From Promicromonospora sp. MEB111 (lineage in GTDB: Bacteria > Actinomycetota > Actinomycetes > Actinomycetales > Cellulomonadaceae), in contig NZ_JARVSD010000002.1 in the NCBI RefSeq assembly GCF_030209445.1, positions 62,001 through 126,000 of the forward strand: a stretch of DNA of 64,000 nucleotides, written 5' to 3'. The first letter of the stretch is position 1. Every line of letters starts with the position of its first letter. This document shows, piece by piece, positions 703 to 46,190 of the stretch. A model generated the notes under the pieces. It was not told the DNA's origin and searched no databases. It saw only the letters and a program-made list of their open reading frames with translations. The position numbers and the translations under genes are program-made.

Positions 703-714
703 ACGCCGAGGCTA
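703..714 (-). promoter_or_regulatory. Leaderless -10 element of the YobI-like gene
   Basis: Read on the minus strand, TAGCCT (709-714) fits TAnnnT and lies six bases before the ATG at 702, so transcription would begin at or next to the start codon. No convincing -35 element is visible. Confidence 0.5.
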
Positions 715-2131: not shown

Positions 2132-2361
2132 AGGGCAACAGCGCCACTGTGGAGAACCTGCTTGATCCGATCTCCGACCCCTAGGATGCGAATCCGTCGT
2201 CGATCGATTTCGTTGCGTATTCAACCGGCGGCTCGTCGAGCAGGCATGCCGCACCTCATCACGACGGCACCTGGCTCACATCCATGCAGCGGTCCCGGGT
2301 GAACTTAAGCGGGTTGCCTCGAACGAGCGCTTCGACGCTGCCCGCGCCCAGGACCAGTGGT

Positions 2362-2367
2362 TATCTT
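2362..2367 (+). promoter_or_regulatory. Leaderless -10 element of the TIR gene
   Basis: TATCTT matches TAnnnT and lies exactly six bases before ATG 2374. This supports that ATG over an in-frame start at 2284 and implies a leaderless transcript. Confidence 0.55.
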
Positions 2368-2373
2368 GAGCCC

Positions 2374-3873
2374 ATGATCGACGCGGTTGGCAAGCACGTC
2401 TTCGTCTCCTACGTGCACGAGGACGGTGACGAGGTCGACCAGTTGTGTGCAGTCTTGGAGGCAGCGCAGATTCCGTACTGGCGCGATCGCAAGTCTCTCG
2501 GCCCCGGCGATGCGTGGAAGGCAGAGATTCGCCGGGCAATCCGCAGCGGATCGCTCGTGTTCCTTGGATGCTTCTCGGACAACCAACGCCGGAAAGATGC
2601 CTCGCATATGAACGAGGAACTGACCCTCGCCATCGAGGAGTACCGCAAGAGACCTCCCGGTCGGACCTGGCTCATACCAGTCCGGTTCGATTCAGGCGAA
2701 GTCCCCGAGTGGGACCTCGGTGCGGGACGAACCCTGAGCGACCTGAACTACGTGGACCTGTTCGGGACCGGCTACCCGGCCCAAGCCGCTGCGTTGGTGA
2801 CGACGATTCACGGCGTCATGGGTGACAAGCAGCTCAGCCCAGCAGCAGCCCTGGAAGCGGTCGAGCAGGCAACAGATGTGGATCGGGCCGACCTATTGAA
2901 GAGGCTCACCAAGGAGATGCTTCTCGATTCCAGGAGACGGATCGAGCTGGATGACCTGGTGTCTCAGGAGGTCCAGCGCGTTCTCAAGGCGATCAACGAT
3001 CCGGACCGGGTGGCCGGGCCACTTGCCGGTGACGGGAAAGACCAGATTGTGAGCGTAGCCACCGCGGCCAGAGAGCTATGGGGCTTGACCAAGCCCTTCT
3101 GTTCGTCACTCCAGGTCGCTGCACGGTGGGGAGAACCCGAAGCGCTGGCGCCGTGGGCCAGTGGTCTCCGGTCGTTCGTTCAGTCCTCCATCAAGACACA
3201 GGCCGGCCTACAGGCGCTGCTCGACCTTCGGCACCTGCCCGGCGTGGCTTCTCTGATGACCGCTGGCATGGGATGCGTGTCGAGTCAGAAGTGGGGGAAC
3301 CTCAAGACGCTCATGGTCGACCCAATGGTCAGGGGCGGCTACGAAAACAAGCCGGAGGCTCTGCTGGAGGCGACTGATCCATACGCCCCGTTCGGCCAGC
3401 CAGAGCTGGCTGTGCATGCACTCGCCCGGGCCAGCATCGAAGGGAAGCCGCTCGCGGACGCGCTGACGGACTTTACTGAAAGGCGCGTGGGCAAATACCA
3501 CACGCCCGTCGCGGAGTGGCTTCACAAGGAACTGCGGCCCGTGTTCTCGGACCAGTTGCCGGACGACGAAGAGTTCACGGCGATGTTCGACCGTACTGAG
3601 GCTGTTCTCGGGGTACTGGCCCAGGACGCCGTCAACGTCCGCATCACTGCCCGAGGCGGTGGCTGGGGTCAGTCACGCTGGTTCGGGCGGTCGACCTGGC
3701 GCGCGTGGCGCACTGGCAACGCGGTCGAGGACCTACAACAGGAACTCGCGGCCGAGGGCACGATGTGGGGTCCGTTGCGCGGCGGGCTCTTCGGAGGCGA
3801 TGCCGACCGTGCCAAGGCAGCACTGGACAAGTACGCCGAAGTCTTCGGGACGATCGCCAAACAACGGTTTTAG
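2374..3873 (+). CDS. TIR-domain protein
   Basis: The 499-residue protein opens with a TIR domain (about residues 6-135). It has the first-strand box KHVFVSYVHEDGD, the WRDR/GPGDAW region, and the HMNEELTLA helix carrying Glu81/Glu82, where bacterial TIR NADases have their catalytic glutamate. The remaining 360 residues have no motif I recognise; they are mixed helical and could be a sensor, an oligomerisation module or a second effector. TIR proteins in defence systems typically deplete NAD+ or make cyclic ADP-ribose signals. That activity is inferred from the family, not shown. The start is set by the TATCTT element six bases upstream. It lies about 240 bases after the HEPN-like gene and could act with it. 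Confidence 0.82.
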   Translation: MIDAVGKHVFVSYVHEDGDEVDQLCAVLEAAQIPYWRDRKSLGPGDAWKAEIRRAIRSGSLVFLGCFSDNQRRKDASHMNEELTLAIEEYRKRPPGRTWLIPVRFDSGEVPEWDLGAGRTLSDLNYVDLFGTGYPAQAAALVTTIHGVMGDKQLSPAAALEAVEQATDVDRADLLKRLTKEMLLDSRRRIELDDLVSQEVQRVLKAINDPDRVAGPLAGDGKDQIVSVATAARELWGLTKPFCSSLQVAARWGEPEALAPWASGLRSFVQSSIKTQAGLQALLDLRHLPGVASLMTAGMGCVSSQKWGNLKTLMVDPMVRGGYENKPEALLEATDPYAPFGQPELAVHALARASIEGKPLADALTDFTERRVGKYHTPVAEWLHKELRPVFSDQLPDDEEFTAMFDRTEAVLGVLAQDAVNVRITARGGGWGQSRWFGRSTWRAWRTGNAVEDLQQELAAEGTMWGPLRGGLFGGDADRAKAALDKYAEVFGTIAKQRF

Positions 3874-3918
3874 CGCCAGCACGATGGATCGCCGCATGCC
3901 AGCCGGCTCATGGGCCCG

Positions 3919-4932
3919 CTACCGGTCGCGAACGCTGCGCCCGCCTAGTCGCTGCGACACAACGGCGGCGGGCTCAAAACCCAACTGGTAGGCGTCCGCC
4001 CGCAGTCGCCACTCGCGCAGGGCATCCTCAGGGTCGCTCACCCAAGCCGGCTCCCGGATAGAGTACCCGGCAAGGACTTCCTCGTTGATCCTCTCGACGG
4101 GAGACCGAACAACGCTCCGGCCGGGATTGGAAACCAGCCACGCATAGATCGCCTGCTCGGCAAACAACCGCACGAGGTTTCCCGGTGCGTCCGTCAAGGG
4201 AGACGACCAGAGCGCTTCCATCTCTCTCGGGACCCTCCACCGGTCGGTGGGCGACTGCCCTTGAGGCGCGATCCAGCGGAGGCGATCGTTCCCATCGGGA
4301 CATCCGGCCAGGCACGCCCACGGATGCGCGACCCACCACATCCTGTCGAGCTCCACCAACCTGTTAGTTCCGTTCTCAAGAAGCTCGCGCGCCGCATAAG
4401 CGGATACCGCAGTAAACCCGTCCGCGCCCTGCGTAAGCGCGTCAACACACCCGGCGCCACTGTAGCTGGACCCAGGATAGAGCGGGTTGTAGAGGACGTA
4501 GACGGGGACGACGCCGGCCGCGTTGGCGGCCATGATCAGCTTGTCGACCTGCCGGTGCTGGCCCGCGCCGGTGTAGCCGATGTCGTAGCCCGCGTAGGAG
4601 GCGCGTGGCTTGAGCTTTTTTGCTTGCACGTAGAACGAGAACCACCCATGGGTGCCGCCGACGCACCAGATCCAGTCAGCCCCACGGACGCCCTCGTCGG
4701 CCTGGGTCAGCATCTTGATGTCCAGGCGGCTCCTAAGTCTCTGATGCAGGTCGAGCAGTACCGTCTCGGTGATTGTCGTTTCTTGTTGGCGGATCCCCGC
4801 GTCCTCGCCTTGCGCTATCCGTGCACCGAGAGTGGATGCCTCGTCGGTCAGGGCTCGCCGAAGCGCCTCTCGCTCGTGCGGGCCTGGAACCGCAGGGACC
4901 GCGCTCGGGGACGAGGAGGGCATGGCGGACAT
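3919..4932 (-). CDS. DUF6615-like protein with nuclease-like residues
   Basis: This 337-residue protein resembles DUF6615 proteins: an ETTITETVLLDL segment (Glu51), then GADWIW (Asp86) and YVQAKKL (Gln103, Lys105), followed by a Q-x-D-x-LI helix and PVYVLYNP. The spacing E...GADW...QxK is like a PD-(D/E)xK nuclease core with Gln in the usual Glu position, so a nuclease-type function is possible but unproven. The C-terminal half (about residues 150-330) was not recognised. ATG 4932 gives the longest form; ATG 4923 three codons later has GAAGA nine bases upstream and may be the true start. It is convergent with the TIR gene (45 bases apart) and downstream of the AlbA_2 gene on the same strand. 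Confidence 0.65.
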   Translation of the reverse strand: MSAMPSSSPSAVPAVPGPHEREALRRALTDEASTLGARIAQGEDAGIRQQETTITETVLLDLHQRLRSRLDIKMLTQADEGVRGADWIWCVGGTHGWFSFYVQAKKLKPRASYAGYDIGYTGAGQHRQVDKLIMAANAAGVVPVYVLYNPLYPGSSYSGAGCVDALTQGADGFTAVSAYAARELLENGTNRLVELDRMWWVAHPWACLAGCPDGNDRLRWIAPQGQSPTDRWRVPREMEALWSSPLTDAPGNLVRLFAEQAIYAWLVSNPGRSVVRSPVERINEEVLAGYSIREPAWVSDPEDALREWRLRADAYQLGFEPAAVVSQRLGGRSVRDR

Positions 4933-5192
4933 TCTTCACGACCAAGAGGCATCGCGCAGCGCGGGCGGCGCAGACAGCGGTTCGTCCACAGATCCGATCG
5001 GCGAACTTGGCGATTGCATCGCCGCCCCCTGGGACCTCGCTACCTGCGCTCGTAGCTCGCCGCGGCTTCAGGTTGTGGTCAAGCGTCGCCTGGGCAATCC
5101 CGCGTTGAAGCGCCTGCGGCGGGCCATCGCCTCGTCACATGGAGTTGTCGCTCGCACGTATGCGAAGCACTACCTCGTACGAGGCCCCGGTC

Positions 5193-6665
5193 CTAGCGAT
5201 GGCCGCTACGCCGCTCAAGCAAGGGGATGCCGCACTCGTTTGCCCAAGCCTCCACCTCGCGCAGCCAAGCCTGCCGCAATTGAAGTGAATCAATCTGCCC
5301 AGCGGCGGTCAGCAATGTCGAGTCACTCATGCCGTCCTCAGCGAGCATGTCGACTGTGAGGCGACGAACGGTCATCACCAGTTCCTGGGCGCTCTCAGCG
5401 ATCGCATCGAGCGGCGCGGTTACCTGGACAGACTCCCCGTCAACACGACGAGCGTGTGCAAGCTCACTCTCATCGGGTGTCCTGGACACGTCGATCAGAA
5501 GTGGAATTCCAGCCCGGATCGCTTGGCCCGTCCGCGTACTGTCCGGCGTGGAGACTGAGACATCCAACGAGTCATCCTCCCAGGCAGGGAGGAGTTGGGC
5601 GACGAAGATACCGTCCCCGGCAGCGCCGGCACGTACTGCGTGTTTGACCAGTAGGTCCACGAGCCGCAGGATGGCGAACTCCAGCTCGGGCTGTTCGACG
5701 TTCGTCCACTGGAGCGTGCGAGCGCGCTTCAGGGATCCGACAGCGGCCGCGGCGAATCCACTGCCGTCAAGCCAGAGTTCGTGGTGCTGATAATGCGAGA
5801 CCGGGGACGATGGGTCCGACGTGACTACGATCCGCTTGCGGCGGACCCTTGCATCTAAGCTCCGGTGCTGGGCTGGTTCTAGTGGCATCTCGCCCTGCCA
5901 GCGGTACACAAGGTCAAGGGCGGCGTCTGGTTCGGCGGCTGAGAGGGGCAGTTCACCCGGCAGACTCGGGATGAACGCGACAGCAACCCATGCGTTGCCC
6001 GCCCTGGCCAGAGCTGGTCGTGCCAACTCGATGATTTCCTGAGCGCGGTCCTGGTCCGAGCGAGCCATTTCGAGTCTATTCCTGTATCGGTCGGCTACCT
6101 CAGACTCCGATAGGTAGACCGTCATCGTGGAACGCCGGACCGGGTAACTGAGCTGGGGCTGGTTCACGACCGCATGCGGTGAGTTCGGGCTCCGCGGAAT
6201 CGCGACAATGCCGATACCTGTCCCGGGCGAGTCAGGGTTCGGCACCCACCGCACGTGAACCTGTGGAAGCTTCGGCGCTATGCGGCTAGCAGTGATCGAT
6301 TGGACTCGCTCCTCGAAGTCGTCAAGCTGGTTGACTGGCGACAAGCCGGCCGCGACGTCACGGCCATCGTCGTTGACTCCGTAGATGAGGACCCCGCCAG
6401 TTGCATTGGCGAACGCGGCACAGTCCTTCGCGAACTCCTTGGTGTTGTCCCACCATTGGCTCTTAAATTCCAGGTCGGCCGCCTCAGGAGTCTGCAGGCT
6501 GATGGCCCGTTGGACTGCCTGCCAGACTTCGTCGCCGGTTGCGTCAAACAACCCAGTGGTCAAAGCGAGGGCCTGTTCGACGCGGAGGAACCGGGCTGCC
6601 ATAGCAGCAAGGTAGTCCTGTACTGAACGCGTGTCGACGAGATAGTGGCACCCGGCCTGGACCAC
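5193..6665 (-). CDS. AlbA_2 / Schlafen-type domain protein
   Basis: The 490-residue protein has an AlbA_2 (Schlafen-related) domain at about residues 45-190: DLEFKSQWW, then DCAAFANATGGVLIYGV with the ND-D-G turn, and later YPVRRSTMTVYLSESEV. In bacteria these domains are thought to bind nucleic acid or nucleotides and occur in regulators, AAA-4 proteins and defence genes. Residues 200-490 are unassigned. The first codon used is GTG 6665; ATG 6602 (residue 22) would remove a dispensable-looking tail and cannot be excluded. The gene is divergent from the membrane protein at 6864 and precedes the DUF6615-like gene on the same strand, with a gap of 260 bases in which I see nothing. Confidence 0.75.
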   Translation of the reverse strand: MVQAGCHYLVDTRSVQDYLAAMAARFLRVEQALALTTGLFDATGDEVWQAVQRAISLQTPEAADLEFKSQWWDNTKEFAKDCAAFANATGGVLIYGVNDDGRDVAAGLSPVNQLDDFEERVQSITASRIAPKLPQVHVRWVPNPDSPGTGIGIVAIPRSPNSPHAVVNQPQLSYPVRRSTMTVYLSESEVADRYRNRLEMARSDQDRAQEIIELARPALARAGNAWVAVAFIPSLPGELPLSAAEPDAALDLVYRWQGEMPLEPAQHRSLDARVRRKRIVVTSDPSSPVSHYQHHELWLDGSGFAAAAVGSLKRARTLQWTNVEQPELEFAILRLVDLLVKHAVRAGAAGDGIFVAQLLPAWEDDSLDVSVSTPDSTRTGQAIRAGIPLLIDVSRTPDESELAHARRVDGESVQVTAPLDAIAESAQELVMTVRRLTVDMLAEDGMSDSTLLTAAGQIDSLQLRQAWLREVEAWANECGIPLLERRSGHR

Positions 6666-6863
6666 GCCGGATCGCTCGAAGCACAGTAGGAGGGGCTCAA
6701 CTCGACATCACTGCATCGAGCGGAACCTCACCCTCCGCACAACCAGGCTCCGGCACTGCATCGGGTGAGCGGCGGATGAAGTCCGCGCTACGGGAGTGGG
6801 CGTTCAGGAAACTTCCAGTTCAATGTTGACCACCGGGCGCCCGACTTTTCCGATCGGAGCCTG

Positions 6864-7679
6864 ATGTCCGGAACGACCCCAGCCGAACCAAAAGATCCGC
6901 CCAAGGACCCATCCAAGCCCGCTCGTCAACCGCGCTCCACACGCCGTCGCAGACCGGGCAACCCCACCGTCAAAGCCGCCGTCATCACGGGCCTCGCGTC
7001 GATCGTCGTCGGGGCGATCGGAGGATGGTCCGCCATCGCAGCAAGCAAGGTGCCCGTACCTACGCCCGACGGCCTAGTCACGATCAACGTGATTCAGGAG
7101 CAGTCTCAAGGGCTCGAGACGAAGGTCGACGAGCTCACCGAAACCAATAGTGAGCTTGTTGAGGAGATCGAGAGCCTTCGCGAGCCGACGCCCAGTCCCA
7201 CTCCCACCACGAGCACTGGGCCTACCGAAACTACGGAGGTTCCGTCTGAGCTCATCTATCAGGATCGCGAGTTCACGATCGTCGGCTCTGAGCAGTCGGG
7301 ACGTACCGCCGTCGTCGACTTCGACATGAAGGGAAACTTCGCCCTCCAGGACGACGAGTGGGACGACATCCAGGACGCAGACGGACCGGCCTCGGATTCC
7401 GCAGATATGGCGATCGAGGACTACGACTACCTGGTCTTCGCAAGGACGATCGGGCACAGCAGCCACGACGTGGCTCCGGCACCCGACGACCCGGCCGCCT
7501 GCCTCGCCGATGCCAGGTCGGGCGAGGACGACGAACTCTACGTTTCCGACGAGCTCCAGGTCAACGACGTGATCTGCACGCAGACCACTGCGGGCGCTGT
7601 GGCCAGACTCGTGGTGACCGACGTAAACAGCGAGGACTATCCCTACAGCGTTCAGCTGTCCGTCACCCTCTGGGCATGA
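6864..7679 (+). CDS. Single-pass membrane protein with coiled coil and acidic exodomain
   Basis: Unknown 271-residue protein. Residues 1-36 are Pro/Arg-rich and presumably cytoplasmic. One membrane helix lies at about 37-60 (AAVITGLASIVVGAIGGW), followed by a heptad-like stretch (about 78-106), a Pro/Thr-rich linker (about 107-130) and an acidic C-terminal domain of about 140 residues with two cysteines. The topology suggests an extracytoplasmic sensor or binding domain. GGAG five bases before ATG 6864 supports the start. It is followed by hairpins and then the converging end of the relaxase gene. No family was recognised, and it may belong to the accessory island or to the mobile element. 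Confidence 0.65.
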   Translation: MSGTTPAEPKDPPKDPSKPARQPRSTRRRRPGNPTVKAAVITGLASIVVGAIGGWSAIAASKVPVPTPDGLVTINVIQEQSQGLETKVDELTETNSELVEEIESLREPTPSPTPTTSTGPTETTEVPSELIYQDREFTIVGSEQSGRTAVVDFDMKGNFALQDDEWDDIQDADGPASDSADMAIEDYDYLVFARTIGHSSHDVAPAPDDPAACLADARSGEDDELYVSDELQVNDVICTQTTAGAVARLVVTDVNSEDYPYSVQLSVTLWA

Positions 7680-7691
7680 CAAGCCTGACGA

Positions 7692-7764
7692 CTCGGCGCG
7701 GTCACCTCTTGTGGGCGCGCCGAGCTCGTCGAGCGGGCATATAGCGGCCCGGCCAGAGCCGGGC
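7692..7764. terminator. Paired hairpins between convergent genes
   Basis: Two inverted repeats follow the membrane-protein stop: nine-base arms at 7692-7700 and 7716-7724 (CTCGGCGCG and its complement), and a perfect seven-base stem with a four-base loop at 7747-7764 (GCCCGGC-CAGA-GCCGGGC). The second, lying between two converging genes, is the better terminator candidate. Neither has a T-run, as is usual in actinobacteria. Confidence 0.5.
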
Positions 7765-7844
7765 TGACGGGAAACTGGATCCCTATGAGCACGTTTCAGT
7801 TGGTCGTCGAGGGCGGTGAGATCTCGGCCGCCGACCGGTCTCGT

Positions 7845-10800
7845 CTACCAGTGGCCCCGGTCGGTCACCCGGTCGTGTTCCCCCTCGGCGCGGTCGCGGC
7901 GAACGCGTTCGTCGGCCTCTCGGCGCATCCGCTCGGCGCTGGCCCGCGCGTCGGCTAGCACGACCGGTACCCGTTCCATCGGCTTCGGGCCAGACCAGGC
8001 CACAGGCCGGGCCGCGGACCGGGTTCCGGTGTCGCTGGTGGTGATGGTGTCCAGGGCCCGGTCAGCGATAGCGCGCGCGTCGCCGCGTTCACCCACTCCG
8101 CCTTCCGGCCCGAGCGGGTGGACGGGGTCGGTGATCTGGTACCGGTCGCGGTATGCCAGCACCTGCCGCATCGCGGCCATCCACGCCTCGCGTGGGGGGC
8201 CGGGTGGGGGCGGTGGGGTGATGCTCTGCATCCACAACTGCGGGTCGGTCAGTGCGTCCTGGACCAGGGTGTCCAGGCGGGCGGCGATCAGGTGGGCGTG
8301 CCGCACCAGCCAGGTCCGCACCAACGGGTCGGTCACCACTGGTGCCCACCTGGCGTCGCCCTGGTTGCCGTCGCCTGTAGTCAGGTCGGTCTCGGGGCCG
8401 ACGTCCTGCTGAACGCCGTCCAGGATCCTCTGAGCGAGGTGGTCGCACAGGATCTCCCGTACCGAGCCGGCGTCGAGCTGGGCGAGGGTCGCGGCACCTG
8501 GGGCGTCGCCGACGGTACGGGCAATGTGGTCGACCAGGTCCAGCCACTGCTGTGGTTCGACTCGGTCGTAGAGGTGGTCGACCAGGGCGCGCAGGAGGGA
8601 GAGCTGCTGGTCGGGGTGGTCGATGGAGCGGATGTGCTGGAGGTTGGGTTCCATCGCGAACCACACGAGCGGCACCGGCCCGGCCAACGCCGCGGTCAGG
8701 GCTTCGGGGTCCTCGAGTGCGACCTGGGCAGGGTCGGCCGGCAGGTCCAGGGCCTGGGCGTGAGCGGCCTCGTGCGGGGTGAGGGCTTCCCAGACGCGAG
8801 CGGCGGCGGTGCGCCCGGCGGTGTCGGGGTCCAGGGCGACGATAAGGTCGCTCAGGTCCCGCCCGGTCGCCTTCCGCACGGCTCGGAGGTGCTGCTGGGT
8901 GATGCCGGTGCCACCAGCCGCAACCGGCACGACGTCGAAACCGGTCTGCTGGGCAAGGAGGGTTGCGGCGAGGTGGAGCGCAACGTGGTCGGTGGGTCCT
9001 TCGACCAGGACCGGCCTCGCGCCTGCTGCCAGGCGGGTGACTGCAGCAGGGTCGAGGCCGTACAGGAGCTCGCCCTTGCGGTAGGCGGCGGTCTCGGGAG
9101 TGTTGAGGTACTTCGGCGCCCGGGCATCTCCCGCGCTGGTGTCGGCGGGATTGATCCGGCCGGTCACGCCGACGACGGCCCCGGTCTGGTCGCGGTAGGG
9201 GAACACGATCCGGTCGCGGAACTTGTCGATCACCCGCCCGTTCCTGGTCCGCGTCGCGACCCCGGCAGCCACGAGCTGGTCCGAGGTGTAGCCGAGGGTC
9301 TGGAGGTGGTCGGTCAGCCCGGTCCACGACGCCGGCGCGACACCGCGCTCGGCGCCCGCCAGGCCGCGGCTGGTCATGTACCGTGTCGCCCACGACTGGG
9401 TGGTGTTCTGCCTGGTCCACCAGGCCCAGGCGTGGGCGGTGATCTCCACCACCAGCGCCCGCTCGCGCGCATCCACCAGCCGCTCCCCTAAGCATTCAGA
9501 GACGTCGGTGCGTGCGACGGCCTGCCCCTGCTGCCCGGTCGTCGCCATCGGGGCTCCCCCGCGCTCCTCGTCCGACTGGGTCACGGTGGTAGGCGTGGTC
9601 GTCTGCGGGGTCGTGGTCCGCTCCCACAGGAGGTTCTGGGTGGTGTCCGGGGCGGTCGTGATCCAGACCGGCAGACCCCGCCCGTCCCCGGCCTTGTCCA
9701 TGCCGTGGGGTCGAGGCAGGTCGATGCGGTGGTGCAGGACTTTCGCGATTGACTTCGCCCCCGCGAAACCCTCCCCGGACGCGTATCGTAGGACGGTCTC
9801 GGGGTCGGTGCCGGCGGCGTCGTGCTGGGACAAGCGCTTGACCAGGGCCGGCCACGCCTCGTCCGCCAACACCACGTTCGCCATCCGCTCCGGGAGCGTG
9901 GCGCGTACCGCCTGGGTGAGGCGTGCGATGCGGTCGGGTTCGAGGAAGGCCAGGTAGGCGTCTTCGTACTCAGGGACCATGCGGGCCAGGGAGTGGGCAT
10001 AGTCCCAGTCGTCCTCGATGACTCGGTGGGCGGACTTCTCCTCGCCGTCACGGTCCAAGGTCGCCTTGAGCGCGTTCAGGACCGCGCGCTCCAGCGCGGG
10101 TTGCCGGTGGGGGTCGAGGTCGAGGACGTCGTCGGTCTCCACGTAGACCCGGTTGGAGTCGGCGCCGCGGGTGATGGCGGTGTAGAGCTCGTTGCGGGTC
10201 ATGCCGACACCGACCATCGCGTGGCAGGTGTCCACGGTCATGCCCTGCACCCGGTGAATCGTCGCCGCGTACCCGAGCTCAACATGCTGAGCGACGTAGT
10301 CCACCGGGAGCACGACCGTCGCGCCGGTGTCCAGGTGCCGGGCCTGCAACGCACCGCCACGACCACGGGCGATGACGCGCCACAGGTCACCGTTCCTGAC
10401 CCAGTCGCGGCCCCGGTCGATGTGCCCGTCGTCGCGCACTGCCCGCAGGTGGCGGTTGTTCAGCCGGGTCACGATCACGTCCCCGACCCCGGCCCTGGTG
10501 TCGTCGTGCAGGGTCACGCCGTCGCCCTCGACCTCACCGCGCGCGACACGATGCAGCCGGGCGCGTGCGGACAGGGTGGTGACCAGGGTGTTGGTCGCGG
10601 CGATCATGATCGTGGACAGGCCCCGGTCGGAGTCGGTCATCCAGTTCGCGAACATCTCCTCCGCCATCTGCGCCGCCGACCCGCCCAGGGTGCGGTGCCG
10701 GGTGACGTAGAAGTCCAGCCCCCGGTGATCCCCATCGCGCAGCTGAAGGGACGCGTCAGCCTCACCCGGGGTGTGGAACCGGTGCACCTGCGTGAGCTCG

Positions 10801-13175
10801 ACCGCCCCGGTCTGCTCGGCGATCAACCGCAGCGCACCGCCGGCAGCGACGGCACCGAGCTGGGCGGGGTCCCCGAGCAGCCGGATGCTGCCGCCGGCTT
10901 GTTGGGTGATGGTCAGGACGTGGGCCAGGGAAAGGGTGCCGGCCAGGCTCGCCTCGTCCACCAACACCACCGTCCCCTCCTCGACCGTGAGCCGTTCACG
11001 CAGCCGCTCCCCACCCGCGCCCTGGTTCGCGAGGAGGAACATGTCCAGGGTCTCCGCGATGATGTCGTCGCCGAGGTCGGCGCCGAGGACTTCCGCGGCC
11101 GCGGCCGACGGCGCGAGCGCGATGACCTTGCCGCCCGACTCCTGGACCGCGACCGCGAGGGCACGCATGGCCGTGGTCTTCCCGGTCCCGGCCGGGCCGA
11201 TCCCCGCCACCAGGCTCATGCTCGAGGCGAAGGACGCAACCAGGTCCCGCTGCCCCGGGTTCAGGACCCGCCCCGTGTCGACCCGCACGCGCTCGATCGC
11301 CCGGTCCACGGCAGCGGGGTCGATGATCAGGCCACCACGTGTGCGGGTGGCGGTCAGGAGCTGGTCCTCGGCCTCCAGGACCGCGAGGGAGGTGTACCTC
11401 GTGGAGCCGTGCACGAAGTACACGCTCTCGCCGTCCTTGCGGCGCATCACGTCCGGCGGCTCGTTCACCTCCGGTGCCGACACCTGCAAACTGCCCGCGA
11501 CCGCGTGCCCGGTGATCGTCGCCGCCACCGCGAGCAGGTCGCTCCCGGTGGGGGCGTGTTCGCGCGCGAGGCGGGTAGCTTCCGCCTGCAGGGTGTACGT
11601 CGTCCACGTCGAATGCCGGTCCGCCACGTTCCGCAAACACGCGTCGACCAGGTCACCCTCCGCCAGCACCCCGCGTGCCAGGTCAACGAGCCTTGCCTGA
11701 CGGGCGGTCGGTGGGCGCCACCGCAGCTGCCGGAACACCCGTGCGCGGGGCCACCGGTGCGCGAGCCGCTCCAGGGCGTCGGTGACATCCTGAGCCGCCC
11801 ACCGGACGACCCGTCGCCCAGCGAGGTCCTGGGCGACCGCCGGCCACAGGTCCTCCGGCCCGTCGACCACGATCCGATCCATCCCGGGCCGGGGGTGTAG
11901 TGCGCTAGTGAGCATCCGCGCGACCCCGTCCGCGCTGCCCAGGACCCGGGCAACGATACCGGCCCACTGCGGGAGACGGTCACGCAGCCCGACCGGGGTG
12001 TCCTTGGCCTGGCGGGTGTCGAGGTTGGCCTGCTGCGTCAGCCCGAACGCCGTCTTCGTTCCCGGCTCATGCCCGTGCTTCGCCCGATACTGCGCGCGGA
12101 GGGTCTCGTAGGACTCCTCGATCGCCGCCCGACGCCGCGAGAACACATCCCGCAACGCCTTCGGGATCCCGGCGATCTCCCGCACACCCTGCTTGCCCCG
12201 ACCCCTCGTCTCGGTGTGGAACACGACCCCGAGACGGTCGACCAGAAGCTGTTCGACCCGGGTGTTGTACCGCTCGCTGGCCGCCACCGCCAGGTGGTGC
12301 AGGACCCGACCGTCCAACGCCCGCCACCCGCCGTCGACACCACGGACCTTGTTCGAGACCGCGACATGGGTATGCAGGTCCGGGTCCCCCGCCCGGGAGT
12401 CCAAGTGGTCGAACGCGACCGCGACCAGGCCATGGGTATCGATCTGCCGCACACCGCCCGCACCCTCCCGCGTCAACGCCCCCTCGGCCTCGATCCACGC
12501 CAGCGTGTCCTGCCAGGCGTCGTTGTGCGCCTTCGTGATCGCCTCCCGGGTCGCCGGATCCCCCAGGCCCCACACGACCGAGATGCTCTTGGACGGAGTG
12601 AACACCAGGTCATACCCCGCTACCGCCCGACGCGGCTGCTGCCCACGCTTGGCCAGCCACGTGGCGACGTCCGCGTCCGTGACCGTGCCACCGCGCTTGT
12701 CGCTCTTCTCCCGTTGCGCCAAGGAGGTCGCGACGTTCCACCGGATCAGGTCCCGCTCTACCCCCGGCTCCGGCGGGCGGTCGTTCTCCCGAGCGAACCG
12801 CTCGAACGCGACCTCCAGCCCGGCACGCAAGCCGTCATCGGGCCGGGCTTCGAACGTCGGGAACGCCCGCCCGATCCATCCCGCCCGATCCGCGTCGTGC
12901 TCCGACGCGCCACGCGCCAGAGCCTCGAGCTCCAGCCGGGCCGCGTCCGGGTGCCGGCCCAGCCCGAACAACGACTTCATCTGCCTCTCCAATACTTGCC
13001 CGGACACCCCGACCTGGTCCAGGCCCGTGCCGACCCACCGGCCCGGCGGGTTGCCGTGCTGCATGTAGTACGCCGTCAACGACATCCCCCGCTCCCGCGG
13101 GACATCACCACTGGCGACCTGCTGGGTCAGGTACGTGTACCCGCTACCCGCGCTGAGCACGTGGACCGTCATCAT
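7845..13175 (-). CDS. MobF-type conjugative relaxase fused to helicase and DnaG-like primase
   Basis: A 1,776-residue multidomain DNA-transfer enzyme. The TrwC/TraI-type relaxase (about residues 1-340) has N-terminal Tyr13 and Tyr15 (GSGYTYLT) as nicking candidates and the metal-binding LHTHV motif near 268. A RecD-like helicase follows: Walker A GPAGTGKTT near 663, Walker B VVLVDEAS near 725, GYAATIHRVQG and LYTAITRG. The C-terminal third adds a DnaG-like primase core (about 1265-1480), with DRIVFPYRDQTGAVVG and TOPRIM-type PVLVEGPTDH (near 1390) and LDPDTAG (near 1448). ATG 13175 was chosen because a strong GGAGGAGG ribosome site precedes it. It should nick oriT, unwind the strand and prime its replacement in the recipient. 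No coupling protein or secretion gene is visible. Confidence 0.92.
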   Translation of the reverse strand: MMTVHVLSAGSGYTYLTQQVASGDVPRERGMSLTAYYMQHGNPPGRWVGTGLDQVGVSGQVLERQMKSLFGLGRHPDAARLELEALARGASEHDADRAGWIGRAFPTFEARPDDGLRAGLEVAFERFARENDRPPEPGVERDLIRWNVATSLAQREKSDKRGGTVTDADVATWLAKRGQQPRRAVAGYDLVFTPSKSISVVWGLGDPATREAITKAHNDAWQDTLAWIEAEGALTREGAGGVRQIDTHGLVAVAFDHLDSRAGDPDLHTHVAVSNKVRGVDGGWRALDGRVLHHLAVAASERYNTRVEQLLVDRLGVVFHTETRGRGKQGVREIAGIPKALRDVFSRRRAAIEESYETLRAQYRAKHGHEPGTKTAFGLTQQANLDTRQAKDTPVGLRDRLPQWAGIVARVLGSADGVARMLTSALHPRPGMDRIVVDGPEDLWPAVAQDLAGRRVVRWAAQDVTDALERLAHRWPRARVFRQLRWRPPTARQARLVDLARGVLAEGDLVDACLRNVADRHSTWTTYTLQAEATRLAREHAPTGSDLLAVAATITGHAVAGSLQVSAPEVNEPPDVMRRKDGESVYFVHGSTRYTSLAVLEAEDQLLTATRTRGGLIIDPAAVDRAIERVRVDTGRVLNPGQRDLVASFASSMSLVAGIGPAGTGKTTAMRALAVAVQESGGKVIALAPSAAAAEVLGADLGDDIIAETLDMFLLANQGAGGERLRERLTVEEGTVVLVDEASLAGTLSLAHVLTITQQAGGSIRLLGDPAQLGAVAAGGALRLIAEQTGAVELTQVHRFHTPGEADASLQLRDGDHRGLDFYVTRHRTLGGSAAQMAEEMFANWMTDSDRGLSTIMIAATNTLVTTLSARARLHRVARGEVEGDGVTLHDDTRAGVGDVIVTRLNNRHLRAVRDDGHIDRGRDWVRNGDLWRVIARGRGGALQARHLDTGATVVLPVDYVAQHVELGYAATIHRVQGMTVDTCHAMVGVGMTRNELYTAITRGADSNRVYVETDDVLDLDPHRQPALERAVLNALKATLDRDGEEKSAHRVIEDDWDYAHSLARMVPEYEDAYLAFLEPDRIARLTQAVRATLPERMANVVLADEAWPALVKRLSQHDAAGTDPETVLRYASGEGFAGAKSIAKVLHHRIDLPRPHGMDKAGDGRGLPVWITTAPDTTQNLLWERTTTPQTTTPTTVTQSDEERGGAPMATTGQQGQAVARTDVSECLGERLVDARERALVVEITAHAWAWWTRQNTTQSWATRYMTSRGLAGAERGVAPASWTGLTDHLQTLGYTSDQLVAAGVATRTRNGRVIDKFRDRIVFPYRDQTGAVVGVTGRINPADTSAGDARAPKYLNTPETAAYRKGELLYGLDPAAVTRLAAGARPVLVEGPTDHVALHLAATLLAQQTGFDVVPVAAGGTGITQQHLRAVRKATGRDLSDLIVALDPDTAGRTAAARVWEALTPHEAAHAQALDLPADPAQVALEDPEALTAALAGPVPLVWFAMEPNLQHIRSIDHPDQQLSLLRALVDHLYDRVEPQQWLDLVDHIARTVGDAPGAATLAQLDAGSVREILCDHLAQRILDGVQQDVGPETDLTTGDGNQGDARWAPVVTDPLVRTWLVRHAHLIAARLDTLVQDALTDPQLWMQSITPPPPPGPPREAWMAAMRQVLAYRDRYQITDPVHPLGPEGGVGERGDARAIADRALDTITTSDTGTRSAARPVAWSGPKPMERVPVVLADARASAERMRREADERVRRDRAEGEHDRVTDRGHW

Positions 13176-13550
13176 GTGTCCCCCACCTCCTCCCAGGCGC
13201 TTGTCGAGCTGTTCCGGGTCGCTTCGGCGACCCCCGCTCACGGCTTGTGCAAGAGGTGTGTGGCCCTCGTCGTAGCGGTCCGCGGGACCCGCAGTCCCGT
13301 CGCCCGGCCGCCCACGTCACGCAGCCACGTACGCCGCGCCGCGTCGCCGCTCGCACGTGCGTCGTCACGCGACTGTGCGTCGCCGTCGCTGTTCATCGCG
13401 TGCCCTGCTGCCTGGTGCCAGCAGAAACGCAGCGTCGGGCCCCTCTACGAGGCGTAAGCGTCATGCGACGCGGCACTGCACCGAACTGAGGTGAGCGCAA
13501 CGCCGTTCCACGGTTGACCAGTGGAACCGGTCTGGAACTACGCTCGACGC
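13176..13550. other. Gene-free region between relaxase and divergent gene; possible oriT
   Basis: No convincing gene is seen here. It contains overlapping inverted repeats at 13277-13289 (GGTCC-GCG-GGACC) and 13283-13299 (CGGGAC-CCGCA-GTCCCG), about 100 bases upstream of the relaxase start. MobF relaxases often nick near their own gene beside such repeats, so this is a candidate transfer origin; the nick site cannot be read from sequence alone. The promoter of the divergent gene lies at its right end. Confidence 0.4.
13514..13544 (+). promoter_or_regulatory. Promoter of the amber-interrupted gene (leaderless)
   Basis: TTGACC (13514-13519) and TACGCT (13539-13544) are separated by 19 bases, slightly long. 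The hexamer is followed by six bases and GTG 13551, the usual actinobacterial leaderless arrangement, and sets the start of the downstream reading frame. Confidence 0.5.
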
Positions 13551-40866: not shown

Positions 40867-40897
40867 TTGACCCTCGACCCGCTCGATCCCCCAGGCT
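40867..40897 (+). promoter_or_regulatory. MFS promoter with 19-base MerR-type spacer
   Basis: TTGACC (40867-40872), a 19-base spacer, and CAGGCT (40892-40897) stand seven bases before ATG 40905. The elongated spacer is typical of promoters activated by MerR proteins. GACCCTCGACCC at 40869-40880 is the exact reverse complement of 42099-42110 upstream of the MerR gene that follows this one. Confidence 0.5.
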
Positions 40898-40904
40898 CCC
40901 GGCC

Positions 40905-42095
40905 ATGCCCGTCAAGCTCCCCCATTCCTGGCTCGCCTTCCTCGCCGCGAGCACCCTCAGCCAGCTCGGCAGCTCGGTCCTCTGGTTCGCCCTGGGCTGG
41001 GCCGCGGCGTCGCACGGCGGCCAGGTGGCCGCGCTCGTCCTGACGGCGTCCGGCCTGCCGCGGCTGCTCCTGGTGCTGGTGGGCGGCTCGGTCGCCGACC
41101 GGGTCGGCGCCCGACGCCTGCTCCTGTGCACCGAGTCCGTCATGGTCGCGGTCTGCCTCGCCCTCGCCGTCGCGCTCCGCTCCACCGGCCCGACGCCGTG
41201 GCTCCTCGCCGCCGCCGGCCTCGCCTCCGGCGTGGTCTCGGCGTTCTCCCTGCCCGCCCTCGGCTCGATGCCGCGCCGCCTCGTGGACGACGCCGCGCTC
41301 CCCCACGCGATGGCCCTGCGCCAGGGCCTGAGCCAAGCCGTGCTGCTCGCCGGCGCCCCGCTCGGCGGCGTCCTGGTCGCCACCGTGGGTCTGCCCGCGA
41401 TCGCGGTCGCCGACGCCGCCGGCTTCGCCGTCGTCCTGCTCGTCCTCGCGGTGATCCGGCCCGCGCGCGGCGTCGGCCCCTCCACGGAGCCGTTCTGGCG
41501 CTCCCTGTCCGACGGCGCCCGCGGGGTCGCCCGGACGCGGGGCCTCGCGGCGGCGCTCGGGCTGACGGGCGCCGTGGCCGCCGTCGTGCTGCCGGTGTCG
41601 TCGCTGCTCGTGCCGCTGCTGGGGCAGGCCTCCGGGTGGGGCGCCGGAGCGACGGGGGTGGTGGTCGCCACGCAGGCGGCGGGGTCGATCGGCGCGGCGC
41701 TCGTCGTGGCCCGGACCGGGACGGCGCGGCGGACCGGGCCGGCCGTGGCGCTGGGGCTGGCCGCGACAGCGGGCGGCGTGGCGTTGCTCGCCTCCGGGAG
41801 CTCGCCGGCTCTAGTGGCCGGCGCGGCCGGCGTCGTCGGGGCGGGGACGGGCGTCGCCGTCGCGCACCTGGGGCCGTTCGTGCTGGGCAGCGCACCGCGC
41901 ACCCACCTGGCGCGGGTCCAGGCGTGGACCGCGCTGGCGCAGCTCGCTCCGGTCGTCGTGTCGAACAACCTGCTCGGCGCGCTCGCCGAGCGAGTCTCCC
42001 CCGGCGTCGCACTGGGCTGCTGCGCAGCCGCCCTCGGGCTGTGCGCGCTGGCGGCCACCCGGCTGCTCGCACGTCGTGACCCGGCTGGACCCTGA
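40905..42095 (+). CDS. MFS transporter, drug-exporter type
   Basis: A 396-residue transporter with 12 predicted helices in two bundles. The motif GGSVADRVGARRLLL in the first loop is the MFS loop-2 signature, and ALVVARTGTARRTG is its second-half counterpart. The sequence LAALGLTGAVAAVVLPVSSLLVP sits at the helix 7 region. It is most like MFS_3/enterobactin-type exporters, probably extruding a toxic compound. The MerR-family gene starts 28 bases after its stop, and a MerR-type promoter drives it, suggesting ligand-induced efflux. Confidence 0.88.
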   Translation: MPVKLPHSWLAFLAASTLSQLGSSVLWFALGWAAASHGGQVAALVLTASGLPRLLLVLVGGSVADRVGARRLLLCTESVMVAVCLALAVALRSTGPTPWLLAAAGLASGVVSAFSLPALGSMPRRLVDDAALPHAMALRQGLSQAVLLAGAPLGGVLVATVGLPAIAVADAAGFAVVLLVLAVIRPARGVGPSTEPFWRSLSDGARGVARTRGLAAALGLTGAVAAVVLPVSSLLVPLLGQASGWGAGATGVVVATQAAGSIGAALVVARTGTARRTGPAVALGLAATAGGVALLASGSSPALVAGAAGVVGAGTGVAVAHLGPFVLGSAPRTHLARVQAWTALAQLAPVVVSNNLLGALAERVSPGVALGCCAAALGLCALAATRLLARRDPAGP

Positions 42096-42116
42096 AGTGG
42101 GTCGAGGGTCGATGCT
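42086..42116 (+). promoter_or_regulatory. MerR-type promoter and operator dyad
   Basis: TGGACC (42086-42091), a 19-base spacer and GATGCT (42111-42116) are followed by six bases and GTG 42123. The dyad GACCCT (42088-42093) / AGGGTC (42105-42110), separated by 11 bases, lies in the spacer, as expected for a MerR regulator that remodels an overlong promoter. It supports autoregulation and a leaderless start. Confidence 0.55.
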
Positions 42117-42122
42117 GTACCC

Positions 42123-43163
42123 GTGTACCCCGCAACGATGCTGACCGTCGGCGCGTTCTCGCGCGCCTCGGGCCTCCCCGTCAGCGCCCTGCGCTACTAC
42201 GACGCCGCAGGCCTGCTCCGTCCCGCGCACGTGGACTCCGCCACCGGCTACCGCTGGTACGCGCCGGACCAGGTGGAACGGGGCAGGCTGGTCGCCCGGA
42301 TGCGCCAGACGGGCATGCCGGTCGCCGACATCTGCCGCGTCATCACGAGCGACCCCGTCACGGCCCGCCGGGTCGTCGACGCGCACCAGCGCCGCCTGGA
42401 GGCCGAGCTCGCCACGGCGTCCGCCCACCTCGCCGACGTGCGCGAGCTGCTGGCGGCGACCACCAGCCTCACGGTCGACGACGACGCGCTGCGCGCCGCG
42501 CTCCGCGCCGTCCGGCACGCCGTGAGCGAGGACGCCGGCTGGCCGGCGCTGCGCGGCGTCCTGTTCGACGTCGACGACGTCGGCCTCCGGCTCGTCGCCA
42601 CGGACCGCCACCACATGGCCGTCGCCGGTGTGCCGGTGGCCGACGTGTCGGGCCGGGCGGCGCGCGTCATCGTGCCGGTCGCGGTCGTGGACGCCTTCCT
42701 GGACCGCGCAAAGACCGCACGGGTGGACATGTCCCTGGCCGCGCACCGGATCACGCTCGGCGGCCTGGACGGCGCGCCGATCGATGCGCTCTACCCCGAC
42801 TACCAGGCCCTTCTCGCGGCGCACGGGTCCTGGCCGGGGGACGCGCGGCCGGTCGCGGTCGGTGTGACCGTGCCTGCGCCGGACCTCCTGGAGCGGGTCC
42901 TGCGGTCCGACGTCGGGAGCGGGCCGAACGGCCAACGGCGGGGCGACCTGGTGCTGATCAGCCTCGACCCCGCGGAGGTCCGCGTCGGTGAGGCGCCGGG
43001 CACCGTCGCCTTCGACCGGGAGTTTCTCGCCGACGCCGTCCGTTCGTTCGGCGACGCCGACCTGCTGCTGACGGTCGGCGAGCGCGACGCGATGCGCCTC
43101 GCGGCGGTACACGGTCCGGACGCCGTCGTCCTCCTCATGCCGGTACGACGCGACGCTGCCTGA
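42123..43163 (+). CDS. MerR regulator fused to DNA sliding-clamp-like domains
   Basis: A 346-residue protein. Residues 6-115 form a MerR domain: TVGAFSRASGLPVSALRYYD, then AGLLRPAHVDSATGYRWY and a dimerisation coiled coil (RRVVDAHQRRLEAELATASAH). Residues 130-346 resemble domains 2 and 3 of the beta clamp DnaN: VGLRLVATDRHHMAVAGV, VIVPVAVVDAFLDRA, DALYPDYQALL and a C-terminal VVLLMPVR, like the DnaN end. GTG 42123 is used because of the promoter just upstream; ATG 42138 is possible. Clamp-like folds could sense ligand, dimerise or bind DNA; this is unknown. It probably controls the MFS gene upstream. Confidence 0.85.
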   Translation: MYPATMLTVGAFSRASGLPVSALRYYDAAGLLRPAHVDSATGYRWYAPDQVERGRLVARMRQTGMPVADICRVITSDPVTARRVVDAHQRRLEAELATASAHLADVRELLAATTSLTVDDDALRAALRAVRHAVSEDAGWPALRGVLFDVDDVGLRLVATDRHHMAVAGVPVADVSGRAARVIVPVAVVDAFLDRAKTARVDMSLAAHRITLGGLDGAPIDALYPDYQALLAAHGSWPGDARPVAVGVTVPAPDLLERVLRSDVGSGPNGQRRGDLVLISLDPAEVRVGEAPGTVAFDREFLADAVRSFGDADLLLTVGERDAMRLAAVHGPDAVVLLMPVRRDAA

Positions 43164-43844: not shown

Positions 43845-44291
43845 ATGTCCGGCAAGTACGCCCCCGGATCCGACCCGTACCCCGGGCTGACCCCGGTCGC
43901 CGGCTACGGCCCGCCGACGTCGGTGGCGGTCACCTCGTCGGGCTTCGCAGGGACGATGCTCGTCCTGGCGGCCCTGTTCCAGATCCTCCAGGGGATCGCG
44001 GCCCTGGCGGCGGACACGTCGGCCATGGTCAGCGTCGAGTACATCTACGAGCTCGACGTGACGACCTGGGGCTGGATCCACATCAGCGTGGGCGCCGCCG
44101 CGTTCGCCGCGGGCCTCGGCGTTCTGCGCAAGCAGACCTGGGCGTACGTCGCAGGGCTTGCCCTCGCGATCCTGGCGAGCATCGTGAACTTCGCCTTCCT
44201 GCCCTACTACCCCCTCTGGAGCGCGGTCATCATCGCCCTCACCCTGGCGGTCATCTGGGCACTGATCTTCCTTCTCGGCCGGCGGAGCTGA
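43845..44291 (+). CDS. DUF7144-like membrane protein
   Basis: A 148-residue protein with four helices after a soluble N-terminus. TTWGWIHISVGAAAFAAGLGVL and NFAFLPYYPLWSAVIIALTLAVIWAL match the pattern of actinobacterial DUF7144 proteins (GWxH, FLPYYPLW). Function is unknown. AAGGAG precedes ATG 43845 by five bases. Its 3' end overlaps the converging MFS gene by 41 bases. Confidence 0.75.
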   Translation: MSGKYAPGSDPYPGLTPVAGYGPPTSVAVTSSGFAGTMLVLAALFQILQGIAALAADTSAMVSVEYIYELDVTTWGWIHISVGAAAFAAGLGVLRKQTWAYVAGLALAILASIVNFAFLPYYPLWSAVIIALTLAVIWALIFLLGRRS

Positions 44292-45531
44292 GCAGCCGGA
44301 ACGACGGCACCACGAACGGCGTCAGCGCCAGCACCGCGTACGCCACCCCCACGGCCCAGAGCGTGGGCACCAGCCCGACCCCGTCGACGAGCACGCCCGC
44401 CACCAGCGGCCCGAGCGGCAGCCCCAGCCACGCCAGCGACTTCACCGCGCCCAGCACCCTGGGCAGCATCTCCGTCGGGATGCGCTCGTACTGCACCGCG
44501 CCCAGCACGGGATTGATGCCACCCATCGCGAGCCCGCAGAGCACCACCACCGCCAGCACGGGCACCACCTCGTCACTCACCGCGAGCGCGAGGAACCACG
44601 GCGCGCCGCCGAGCAGGAACCCGAAGGAGTACAGCGCCCAGCGGTTCACCCGCGGCGCCACCCACGCTCCGACCAGGCTCCCCGCCAGGGCGCCCAGGGA
44701 GAACCCGCCGGCCACGGTGCCGACGGCGGCCACCGGCAGCTCGTGCTCCCGCACCCAGGACGGGAGATAGACGCTGGCCAGCCCGGCGTTCAGCAGGTTG
44801 CCGACGGCGACCATCACGACCACCCCCAGCAGCACCCGGTCGCGCGCGAGGAAGGCGAGGCCGGCGCCGAGTCGGCGCAGGTAGGGGTCCGCGACGTCGT
44901 CCCGCGCCGCCGGTGCGCCCACGGTGCGCGGGACGCACAGCGCGACGAGCATCGCGGCGACGAAGAACGCTCCCCCGCTCACGATCAGGACCGTCGGCGG
45001 GGAGATCACGGTCAGGAGGACGGCGGCGATCGGCGCGCCGACGAGCTGGCCGCCCTGGCTGGCCGAGGCGTGCAGCCCGGCCGCCCGTTCGAGCGGCACT
45101 GCGGCCAGGCGGGCGACGGCGGGGACGAGCGGCGCGCTGCCGCAGTCGGCCACGCCCCGGAACGCGCCGGCACAGGCGATGACCACGAGCAGCGCCCCGA
45201 ACCCGAGGTGCCCGTTGACGTACAGCACGGGGACGACGAGCAGCGCCACGCCGGCGGCCAGGTTGGCCGTCCAGCTCGACCGTCGCGGCCCGAACCGCTC
45301 CACCGCAGGACCGGCGGTGGCCTGCATCAGCACGTACGGCGCCATCTCGGCCGTCACGACGAGCCCCGTCTGGGCCGCGCTCCCCGTGGTCGTGAGCACG
45401 AACCACGGGATCGCGATGGCCGACACGGCCGTGCAGGTCACGGAGACGACGTAGGCCGCCAGCACCGCGGCCAGCGGAAGCCGACGGCGCGCCGCCGCGA
45501 TCTCGGCCGTCGTCTGCTCGGCGGCCGTCAC
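44251..45531 (-). CDS. MFS transporter coupled to an ArsR-like regulator
   Basis: A 426-residue transporter with 12 predicted helices. It includes AAVLAAYVVSVTCTAVSAIAIP, an altered loop-2 motif GPAVERFGPRRSSW, and GSLVGAWVAPRVNRWAL in the second half. The start GTG 45531 overlaps the stop of the regulator gene (ATGA/GTGA region). It probably exports a drug-like compound and is repressed by the ArsR-like protein encoded first in this operon. Confidence 0.85.
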   Translation of the reverse strand: MTAAEQTTAEIAAARRRLPLAAVLAAYVVSVTCTAVSAIAIPWFVLTTTGSAAQTGLVVTAEMAPYVLMQATAGPAVERFGPRRSSWTANLAAGVALLVVPVLYVNGHLGFGALLVVIACAGAFRGVADCGSAPLVPAVARLAAVPLERAAGLHASASQGGQLVGAPIAAVLLTVISPPTVLIVSGGAFFVAAMLVALCVPRTVGAPAARDDVADPYLRRLGAGLAFLARDRVLLGVVVMVAVGNLLNAGLASVYLPSWVREHELPVAAVGTVAGGFSLGALAGSLVGAWVAPRVNRWALYSFGFLLGGAPWFLALAVSDEVVPVLAVVVLCGLAMGGINPVLGAVQYERIPTEMLPRVLGAVKSLAWLGLPLGPLVAGVLVDGVGLVPTLWAVGVAYAVLALTPFVVPSFRLLSSAGREGRSVPR

Positions 45532-46190
45532 GCGGGTGCCCCCGTGCCGCCCTCGTCGTCGTCCGGCAGGAGCTGGTACTGGAAGACCGCCCGGTGTCGC
45601 TCCGGCCCGTCCGCGTCCGGGCCTCCCGGGCCGCGGGCGCGGCCCGCCTGGTCCCGGCGGAACGCGGCGACGGCCTCGACCACGCGTGCCGAGAGCTCGC
45701 GGGCCTCGGCGTACGTGAGCGACAGGTCGATGTAGCCGAGCTGCCAGGGCAGCTCACGAACCTCTTCGCCCCGCTCGGGCAGACCGTTCACGTAGCCCAG
45801 TACCCGCTCGTGCCCCACCTGGGCGACCATGCGCAGGTACCGCGCCGCCGTCTCGAGCTGCTCGGCGTCGCCCTGCTGGTCGGGCACGCGCAACGTGAAG
45901 GTGACGTTCTCGTGCGCGGCCCGCCACCAGCGGTCGCGCCGGTTGCCGAGCTCCTCGTCCTCGACCACGAGCCCGGCGTCCGCGAGCGTGCGCAGGTGGT
46001 AGCTCGTCACGCCGCTGGAGTGGCCCACCCGCTGCGCCAGGCCCGACGCCGTGGCGGGTCCGTCCTCGCGCAGCAGCCGGAGCAGGGCGAACCGGATCGG
46101 GTGCGCCAGCGCCTGCACGTTGTGCGGGGTCAGCGTCGCGTAACGCTCCGGGTCGAACCAGGGCGGTGGCCAGCCCTCTTGCTCGGTCAT
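45528..46190 (-). CDS. ArsR-like (HTH_20) transcriptional regulator
   Basis: A 220-residue protein. The N-terminal winged helix (residues 18-85) reads NVQALAHPIRFALLRLLREDG, GLAQRVGHSSGVTSYHLRTLA and GLVVEDEELGNRRDRWW, the pattern of HTH_20/ArsR-type regulators. A helical C-terminal domain (about 90-220) probably dimerises or binds ligand. It is followed by an MFS gene whose start overlaps its stop. An inverted repeat (TTGCAAA-GCACA-TTTGCAA, 46219-46237) lies 29 bases upstream of its start codon and is the likely operator. Confidence 0.85.
   Translation of the reverse strand: MTEQEGWPPPWFDPERYATLTPHNVQALAHPIRFALLRLLREDGPATASGLAQRVGHSSGVTSYHLRTLADAGLVVEDEELGNRRDRWWRAAHENVTFTLRVPDQQGDAEQLETAARYLRMVAQVGHERVLGYVNGLPERGEEVRELPWQLGYIDLSLTYAEARELSARVVEAVAAFRRDQAGRARGPGGPDADGPERHRAVFQYQLLPDDDEGGTGAPA

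Follow-up and report, generated by a model that had tools for sequence, protein, structure and literature searches.

A MerR-type regulator carrying two sliding-clamp domains, a candidate target-mimic sensor encoded beside an exporter in Promicromonospora

A stretch of 64,000 nucleotides from the genome of Promicromonospora sp. MEB111 (6.23 Mb in 35 contigs; assembly GCF_030209445.1, contig NZ_JARVSD010000002.1, positions 62,001 to 126,000), hereafter called the window, encodes a protein in which the DNA-binding domain of a MerR regulator is fused to a part resembling the DNA sliding clamp DnaN, and which is preceded by a gene for an exporter of the major facilitator superfamily (MFS). Our computational analysis supports this architecture and the clamp fold, the retention of the clamp's binding pocket along with the loss of its ring positions, a conserved operator, and a set of genes that bear this operator. 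Because of the known behaviour of MerR factors, the conserved pocket and the genes found under the operator, we consider it probable that the fusion is a target-mimic sensor, that is, a one-component MerR-type activator that would use the pocket of clamp domains II and III to sense clamp-binding compounds.

The combination of MerR DNA-binding and DnaN-like domains in one chain, noticed as unusual in a preliminary description of this DNA made from the letters alone, was confirmed by Pfam, which places MerR_1 on residues 8–74 (1.7e-12, above the cut-off) and DNA_pol3_beta_2 on residues 118–211 (4.1e-10, 40.4 bits versus a cut-off of 27). The NCBIfam DnaN model TIGR00663 scores the protein at 47.6 bits, far under its cut-off of 137.65, and neither a TipAS nor a GyrI-like domain was found among its Pfam matches up to an E-value of 1. 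In the MerR family, the helix following the DNA-binding domain is established as the dimerisation coiled coil, and residues 78–110 of the fusion are modelled as just such a long helix. MerR domain and helix together replace domain I of the clamp.

For structure prediction, 80 relatives were aligned with the window protein (81 sequences in total), which gave an AlphaFold model with a mean predicted local distance difference test (pLDDT) score of 92.7 and a predicted template modelling score of 0.78, while a single-sequence prediction with a pLDDT of 45.8 was set aside. The top Foldseek matches of the model are beta clamps, the best with an E-value of 5.3e-15, and VIA-align superposed residues 112–343 on solved clamps with Z-scores of 20.7–24.1 among the 50 entries listed. 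These include 8ciz, 8ciy and 6ptv, which are clamps with mycoplanecin or griselimycins bound, and several of the structural matches are titled as clamp crystals with varied small molecules in the pocket. The likeness of the predicted structure to the beta clamp had been chosen beforehand as one of two points at which the proposal could fail, and there it survived. Comparison of the fusion family profile with ten DnaN sequences in hhalign gave 99.8 % with an E-value of 3.3e-28. Alignments and model identify the putative sensor half as domains II and III of a DNA sliding clamp; the clamp-like part first given as residues 130–346 is present, although its extent had to be revised to the slightly larger range of residues 112–343.

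On DnaN itself, the clamp-binding motifs of polymerases and repair proteins ordinarily dock in the pocket (accessible part of PMC11139829), which is also filled by griselimycin and mycoplanecin, whereby Met362 moves on binding and Arg365 forms a hydrogen bond (accessible part of PMC10817943). We compared 114 fusion sequences including the window protein with the ten DnaN sequences by BLOSUM similarity, scoring gaps as −4; this set left out proteins shorter than 300 amino acids or with unknown residues (L020, L033, L046 and L062 among them) as well as copies sharing an identical core. The 18 pocket positions and seven of the nine dimer-face positions are those named in the accessible part of PMC11139829, to which we added R269 and E276 for the dimer face. 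Mean similarity to DnaN was 3.64 at the pocket, 0.02 at other positions and −2.45 at the dimer face, and the pocket value was reached by none of 20,000 permutations, likewise when these were restricted to DnaN-conserved positions. Every one of the 114 sequences has Met and Pro at the positions of Met362 and Pro363, and Pro242 (112), Leu155 and Arg176 (111 each) and Arg365 (97) are widely kept. Eight of the nine dimer-face positions vary little among the ten DnaN sequences; in the fusions, the L273 position is a gap in 113 of 114, and the dimer-face stretch aligns loosely, which is itself part of the result. Judged from these alignments, the fusion family has retained the peptide and drug pocket and lost the ring-closing positions of domain III, and clamp-binding compounds as inducers would fit the conserved pocket.

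At its C-terminal pocket segment, the window protein has retained Met339, Pro340 and Arg342. The DnaN of the host (L076:1501-2631) ends in LLVPIR and so has Val at the usual Met362 position of the pocket, whereas the fusion keeps Met; the same ending is common to the DnaN of 12 other genomes of the genus among those listed, and Val also occupies this position in L072, another clamp from the same order.

Pocket conservation could also have a different cause, namely that the clamp part is a structural arm or docking module whose pocket is maintained for a fixed protein partner and not for sensing. A string resembling a clamp-binding motif, found at one domain-III strand in 40 of the 114 sequences, might speak for this, though the window protein lacks it and its role is probably structural. 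Across the 114 fusion sequences, the pocket columns vary less than the remaining DnaN-conserved clamp columns, which speaks weakly against docking, as it would fit a fixed partner too, and overall we hold a docking role to be highly improbable. A built-in clamp motif filling the protein's own pocket was also considered and rejected, since that core strand was the only recurrent motif-like string.

MerR factors typically act on promoters with 19–20 bp spacers, which they activate through distortion of the DNA. A promoter of this type, the operator TTGACCCTCGACCnGGTCGAGGnnnCAGnnT with a 19-bp spacer and an inverted repeat, closely precedes the fusion gene in most loci, ending a few bases ahead of its start codon. 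Its consensus of 31 bases with 25 fixed positions was derived from the tested loci themselves, which makes the test partly circular; loci sharing an identical upstream stretch were collapsed and very short ones excluded. Upstream of the fusion gene, 97 of 98 distinct loci show the operator at up to 7 mismatches, the best of 490 mononucleotide shuffles having 8 mismatches, and at up to 6 mismatches it precedes 25 of 28 MFS genes (best of 560 shuffles, 8). Within the window's family, 25 of 26 loci have it ahead of the adjacent exporter. The three MFS genes without it lie directly downstream of the fusion gene; MFS genes in this position were seen in L034, L046, L048 and one Streptomyces locus, L164. 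With their spacer of 19 bp and an inverted repeat within it, the candidate target promoters look like those of the MerR family, and we infer binding of the protein to them. In the fusion loci, the start codon follows so closely on the −10 element that the transcripts are probably leaderless, and the conserved operator supports shared control of exporter and regulator.

Both of the 19-base-spacer promoters initially described for the window are present before the MFS and the fusion gene (Table 1), and the MFS operator has 3 mismatches to the family consensus. The ATG of the MFS gene at 40905 follows 7 nt past CAGGCT, while the fusion promoter overlaps the end of the MFS gene and is followed by the GTG 6 nt past GATGCT, so that both layouts are leaderless. 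Equally borne out was the statement that a 12-base motif of the MFS promoter recurs as reverse complement in the MerR promoter: it occurs exactly twice in the window, at 40869–40880 on the forward and 42099–42110 on the reverse strand, and corresponds to one arm of the conserved operator. These exact copies are above chance, with 0.07 matches expected and two copies in none of 100 dinucleotide shuffles; when one mismatch is allowed, the same two places compare with 1.76 expected, i.e. not above chance.

Relatives were found with an alignment as query, whereas the protein alone returned none. The best 80 of 512 relatives belong to named actinobacteria such as Streptomyces, Micromonospora, Blastococcus, Cellulomonas, Kitasatospora and Pseudonocardia, besides a few metagenome bins and one record labelled unverified Bacillus. 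Counting the host genome, 27 of 200 genomes of its family have a match at an E-value of 1e-25 and 15 of 394 of its class at 1e-28. Each of 19 genomes searched, again including the host, has one full DnaN above cut-off, and the fusion, where it occurs, comes in addition. Matches to the fusion were also found in eight plasmid records (seven Streptomyces, one Embleya), of which five cover at least 80 % of the protein and six are annotated as 'MerR family transcriptional regulator'. MFS neighbours and fusions were scored by profile and tblastn; a gene caller of our own had overlooked some of the fusions and a large number of membrane genes. The exporter reported beside the regulator turned out to be a conserved neighbour, being near the fusion gene in 26 of the 27 family loci, while the remaining locus is cut by a contig end. 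In the wide-flank loci, an MFS gene lies within 3 kb in 19 of 97, and adjacency alone was rejected as proof of function beyond the window's family, as most other loci have no MFS neighbour.

Whole-genome scans with 31-base operator patterns returned few matches, and a reversed control pattern gave none. A shorter 20-base pattern, applied to twelve genomes, was not used as evidence, as its reversed control matched too, and one operator-like match with one mismatch in the 19-genome scan (G407:C6), to which no gene could be assigned, was treated as chance. The family of genome G407 is presumably Streptomycetaceae, because G407 groups with named Streptomyces sequences in the tree; in this family, 33 sites occur in 32 of 101 genomes, one of them 152 bp before a match to the window-type MFS gene (L407). 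The other 32 lie at fusion genes, 27 of them in newly retrieved loci, one in L408 and four as judged by their position.

A candidate regulon was also obtained for Micromonospora, a genus assigned here through a protein with 100 % identity to its counterpart in Micromonospora sp. RP3T. Operator sites are present in 112 of 121 genomes, the reversed control pattern giving none, and were classified in 70 genomes (69 of the 121 and G657). All 119 classified sites could be assigned: 50 to the stretch between dnaA and dnaN, 39 to the fusion gene, 18 to a second group of MFS genes (mfs2), 2 to window-type MFS genes (L380, L389), 7 to TPR-like and 3 to YunG genes, whereby the later-fetched sites were chosen mainly as non-fusion, so that these shares are biased and do not represent frequencies. 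In other genera of the same family, the classified non-fusion sites comprise 4 mfs2, 3 TPR-like and 1 YunG. An inferred start codon lies within about 10 bases of the site in 17 of the 18 mfs2 cases. The window exporter and mfs2 have MFS_1 and MFS_3 matches in common but no relationship detectable by BLASTP (E 3.6), and therefore unlike exporters share the operator. The dnaA–dnaN site occurs in 50 of the 70 genomes, oriented toward dnaN and embedded in poorly conserved upstream sequence, although the columns fixed in the pattern are conserved by construction.

The fusion was detected at 1e-50 in 114 of the 121 genomes, and the seven without it are all among the nine without a site. With kinship ignored, the probability that seven fusion-less genomes contain no non-fusion site is 0.006, given that at least 61 of 121 genomes have one, and for the dnaA–dnaN site it is 0.023 (at least 49 of 121).

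Some further observations concern the same loci. At L200:4086-4116, L213:1501-1531 and other Micromonospora loci (50 sites), the operator sits at the edge of the dnaA–dnaN stretch and would transcribe through it. The fusion loci of the genus (L134, L137, L155 and others) have stable surroundings, and 22 loci share one downstream gene, which we take by eye to resemble a seryl-tRNA synthetase. In some Micromonosporaceae, small TPR-like proteins (L224, L371, L374, L379) or small YunG-family proteins (L226, L227, L297) are encoded close behind the operator, and in L321 (genome G940) the operator is followed by a fusion-like MerR reading-frame start that soon loses similarity and looks like a decayed copy.

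An operator between dnaA and dnaN raises the question whether the signal might be internal. The cell's own polymerase or repair motifs would then bind the pocket, which is their usual docking site (accessible part of PMC11139829), and the regulator would read clamp shortage or replication stress and adjust clamp supply or origin activity. The dnaA–dnaN sites of Micromonospora favour such an internal sensor, which on the other hand leaves unexplained why the operator stands at exporters of two MFS groups without detectable similarity, and no dnaN site at up to 2 mismatches was found in the window's own lineage; we regard an internal sensor as unlikely. Rather less probable still is a general multidrug sensor, for which the clamp fold would have been recruited as a greasy pocket in the manner of the BmrR and TipA domains, with ligands that do not target the clamp. 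MerR-type control of exporters is indeed a common multidrug layout, and the crystal titles mentioned above show that the clamp pocket can hold varied small molecules. Retention of most of the peptide pocket with its invariant Met-Pro, and likewise the operator facing dnaN, point to clamp ligands instead. Export together with the dnaN-facing promoter of Micromonospora fits clamp poisons better than a purely internal signal or a general multidrug sensor, and we consider this the best account.

According to the target-mimic reading, a clamp poison, be it a cyclic peptide like griselimycin or mycoplanecin or another clamp binder, would also fill the pocket of the regulator. The ligand-bound MerR dimer would then twist the over-long spacer of 19 bp and thereby allow RNA polymerase to initiate, and the regulator would raise its own level and that of the MFS exporter. 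In Micromonospora, it may also activate the dnaN-facing promoter in the dnaA–dnaN gap, with a possible increase in the supply of the target. Activation rather than repression, an exogenous clamp-binding ligand and an effect on dnaN are what we infer from this arrangement. The wider proposal, that an actinobacterial clamp was turned into a decoy-target sensor that triggers export and in Micromonospora also an origin promoter driving dnaN, thereby coupling drug sensing to replication control, is more tentative, and we give it slightly less than an even chance.

Several observations weigh against a target-mimic sensor. The fusion operator of the window is the weaker one, with 7 mismatches and a decayed left arm, and its protein deviates from DnaN in the pocket, having H164 for R176, A229 for R246, D298 for N320 and M165 for L177, where the ten DnaN sequences have Arg, Arg or Ser, Asn and Leu, respectively. 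The link to exporters is not universal: 78 of the 97 wide-flank loci, a few of which have shorter flanks, have no profile-detected MFS gene within 3 kb, and 32 of the 33 sites in the presumed Streptomycetaceae are at the fusion gene itself. No operator with up to 2 mismatches was found within 1.5 kb before dnaN in 18 relatives, or within 2.8 kb in the host genome. In Micromonospora, the dnaA–dnaN site is located 658–684 bp before the dnaN start beside DnaA-box-like repeats, which renders an effect on dnaN uncertain; two genomes have the fusion yet no site at this stringency, and the probabilities for site absence in fusion-less genomes carry no correction for kinship.

Table 1. Features of the exporter and MerR-clamp fusion locus in window coordinates.
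Feature	Position	Strand	Details
MerR-type promoter/operator of MFS gene (putative)	40867..40897	+	TTGACC 40867-40872, 19-bp spacer, CAGGCT 40892-40897
MFS exporter gene, 396 amino acids	40905..42095	+	Pfam MFS_1 1.7e-22, MFS_3 2.5e-11
MerR-type promoter/operator of fusion gene (putative)	42086..42116	+	TGGACC 42086-42091, 19-bp spacer, GATGCT 42111-42116
MerR-clamp fusion gene, 346 amino acids	42123..43163	+	GTG start at 42123
MerR winged helix-turn-helix domain, residues 8-74	42144..42344	+	Pfam MerR_1
Long helix, residues 78-110, in the place of the MerR dimerisation coiled coil	42354..42452	+	Secondary structure of the AlphaFold model
Clamp domains II and III, residues 112-343	42456..43151	+	VIA-align, hhalign; E. 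coli clamp residues 124-366
Pocket segment VATDRHHM, residues 158-165	42594..42617	+	E. coli 170-177
Pocket segment YPDYQAL, residues 224-230	42792..42812	+	P225 = E. coli P242, L230 = V247
Pocket segment LLMPVR, residues 337-342	43131..43148	+	E. coli V360-R365; Met and Pro invariant in 114/114

Elsewhere in the window, the gene for a second MFS transporter lies a short way past the fusion gene and immediately follows that of an ArsR-like regulator (44251–46190, reverse strand). Because a protein of 1798 amino acids combining a TrwC relaxase, an AAA helicase and primase-type DNAG_N and Toprim domains (7845–13241, reverse strand) adjoins a stretch of lower guanine-cytosine content (1–8000), this region is probably part of a mobile element. 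Near the relaxase are a TIR-domain protein matching the PADLOC candidate PDC-S65 (2284–3873, forward strand) and a Schlafen AlbA_2 protein (5193–6665, reverse strand), which represent possible defence cargo.

If the target-mimic reading is true, the fusion would be a transcription factor that senses through a part of the replication machinery, and clamp-targeting natural products would be common enough in soil to select a dedicated detector. Such a detector could be used as a reporter for new clamp-binding antibiotics and would mark the exporters likely to move them, and it would provide a testable link between drug sensing and the dnaA–dnaN region of Micromonospora.

Among the matches listed from the open-access full-text literature, we found no description of a MerR-clamp fusion, though one may exist elsewhere. 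The closest known regulators are those of the TipA/SkgA and BmrR class, of which BmrR controls an exporter. Their N-terminal MerR domain, linking coiled coil, C-terminal drug-binding domain and autoregulation (for TipA, accessible part of PMC7762955) have likely counterparts in the fusion, whose putative ligand domain differs in being a sliding-clamp fragment with clamp fold. A clamp homologue is also linked to clamp-targeting antibiotics in the case of GriR and MypR, the latter being a second DnaN and putative self-resistance gene in the mycoplanecin cluster, like GriR in the griselimycin cluster (accessible part of PMC10817943). In contrast to these second full-length clamps, the fusion is a transcription factor without clamp domain I. 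With DnaN it shares the predicted fold of domains II and III and the peptide-binding pocket, but it has neither domain I nor the ring-closing positions, is joined to a DNA-binding domain and coexists with a complete DnaN. The beta-lactam sensor BlaR1 offers a parallel in that its sensor domain is derived from the drug's own target, although BlaR1 is a membrane protein that acts by signalling, unlike a one-component MerR factor.

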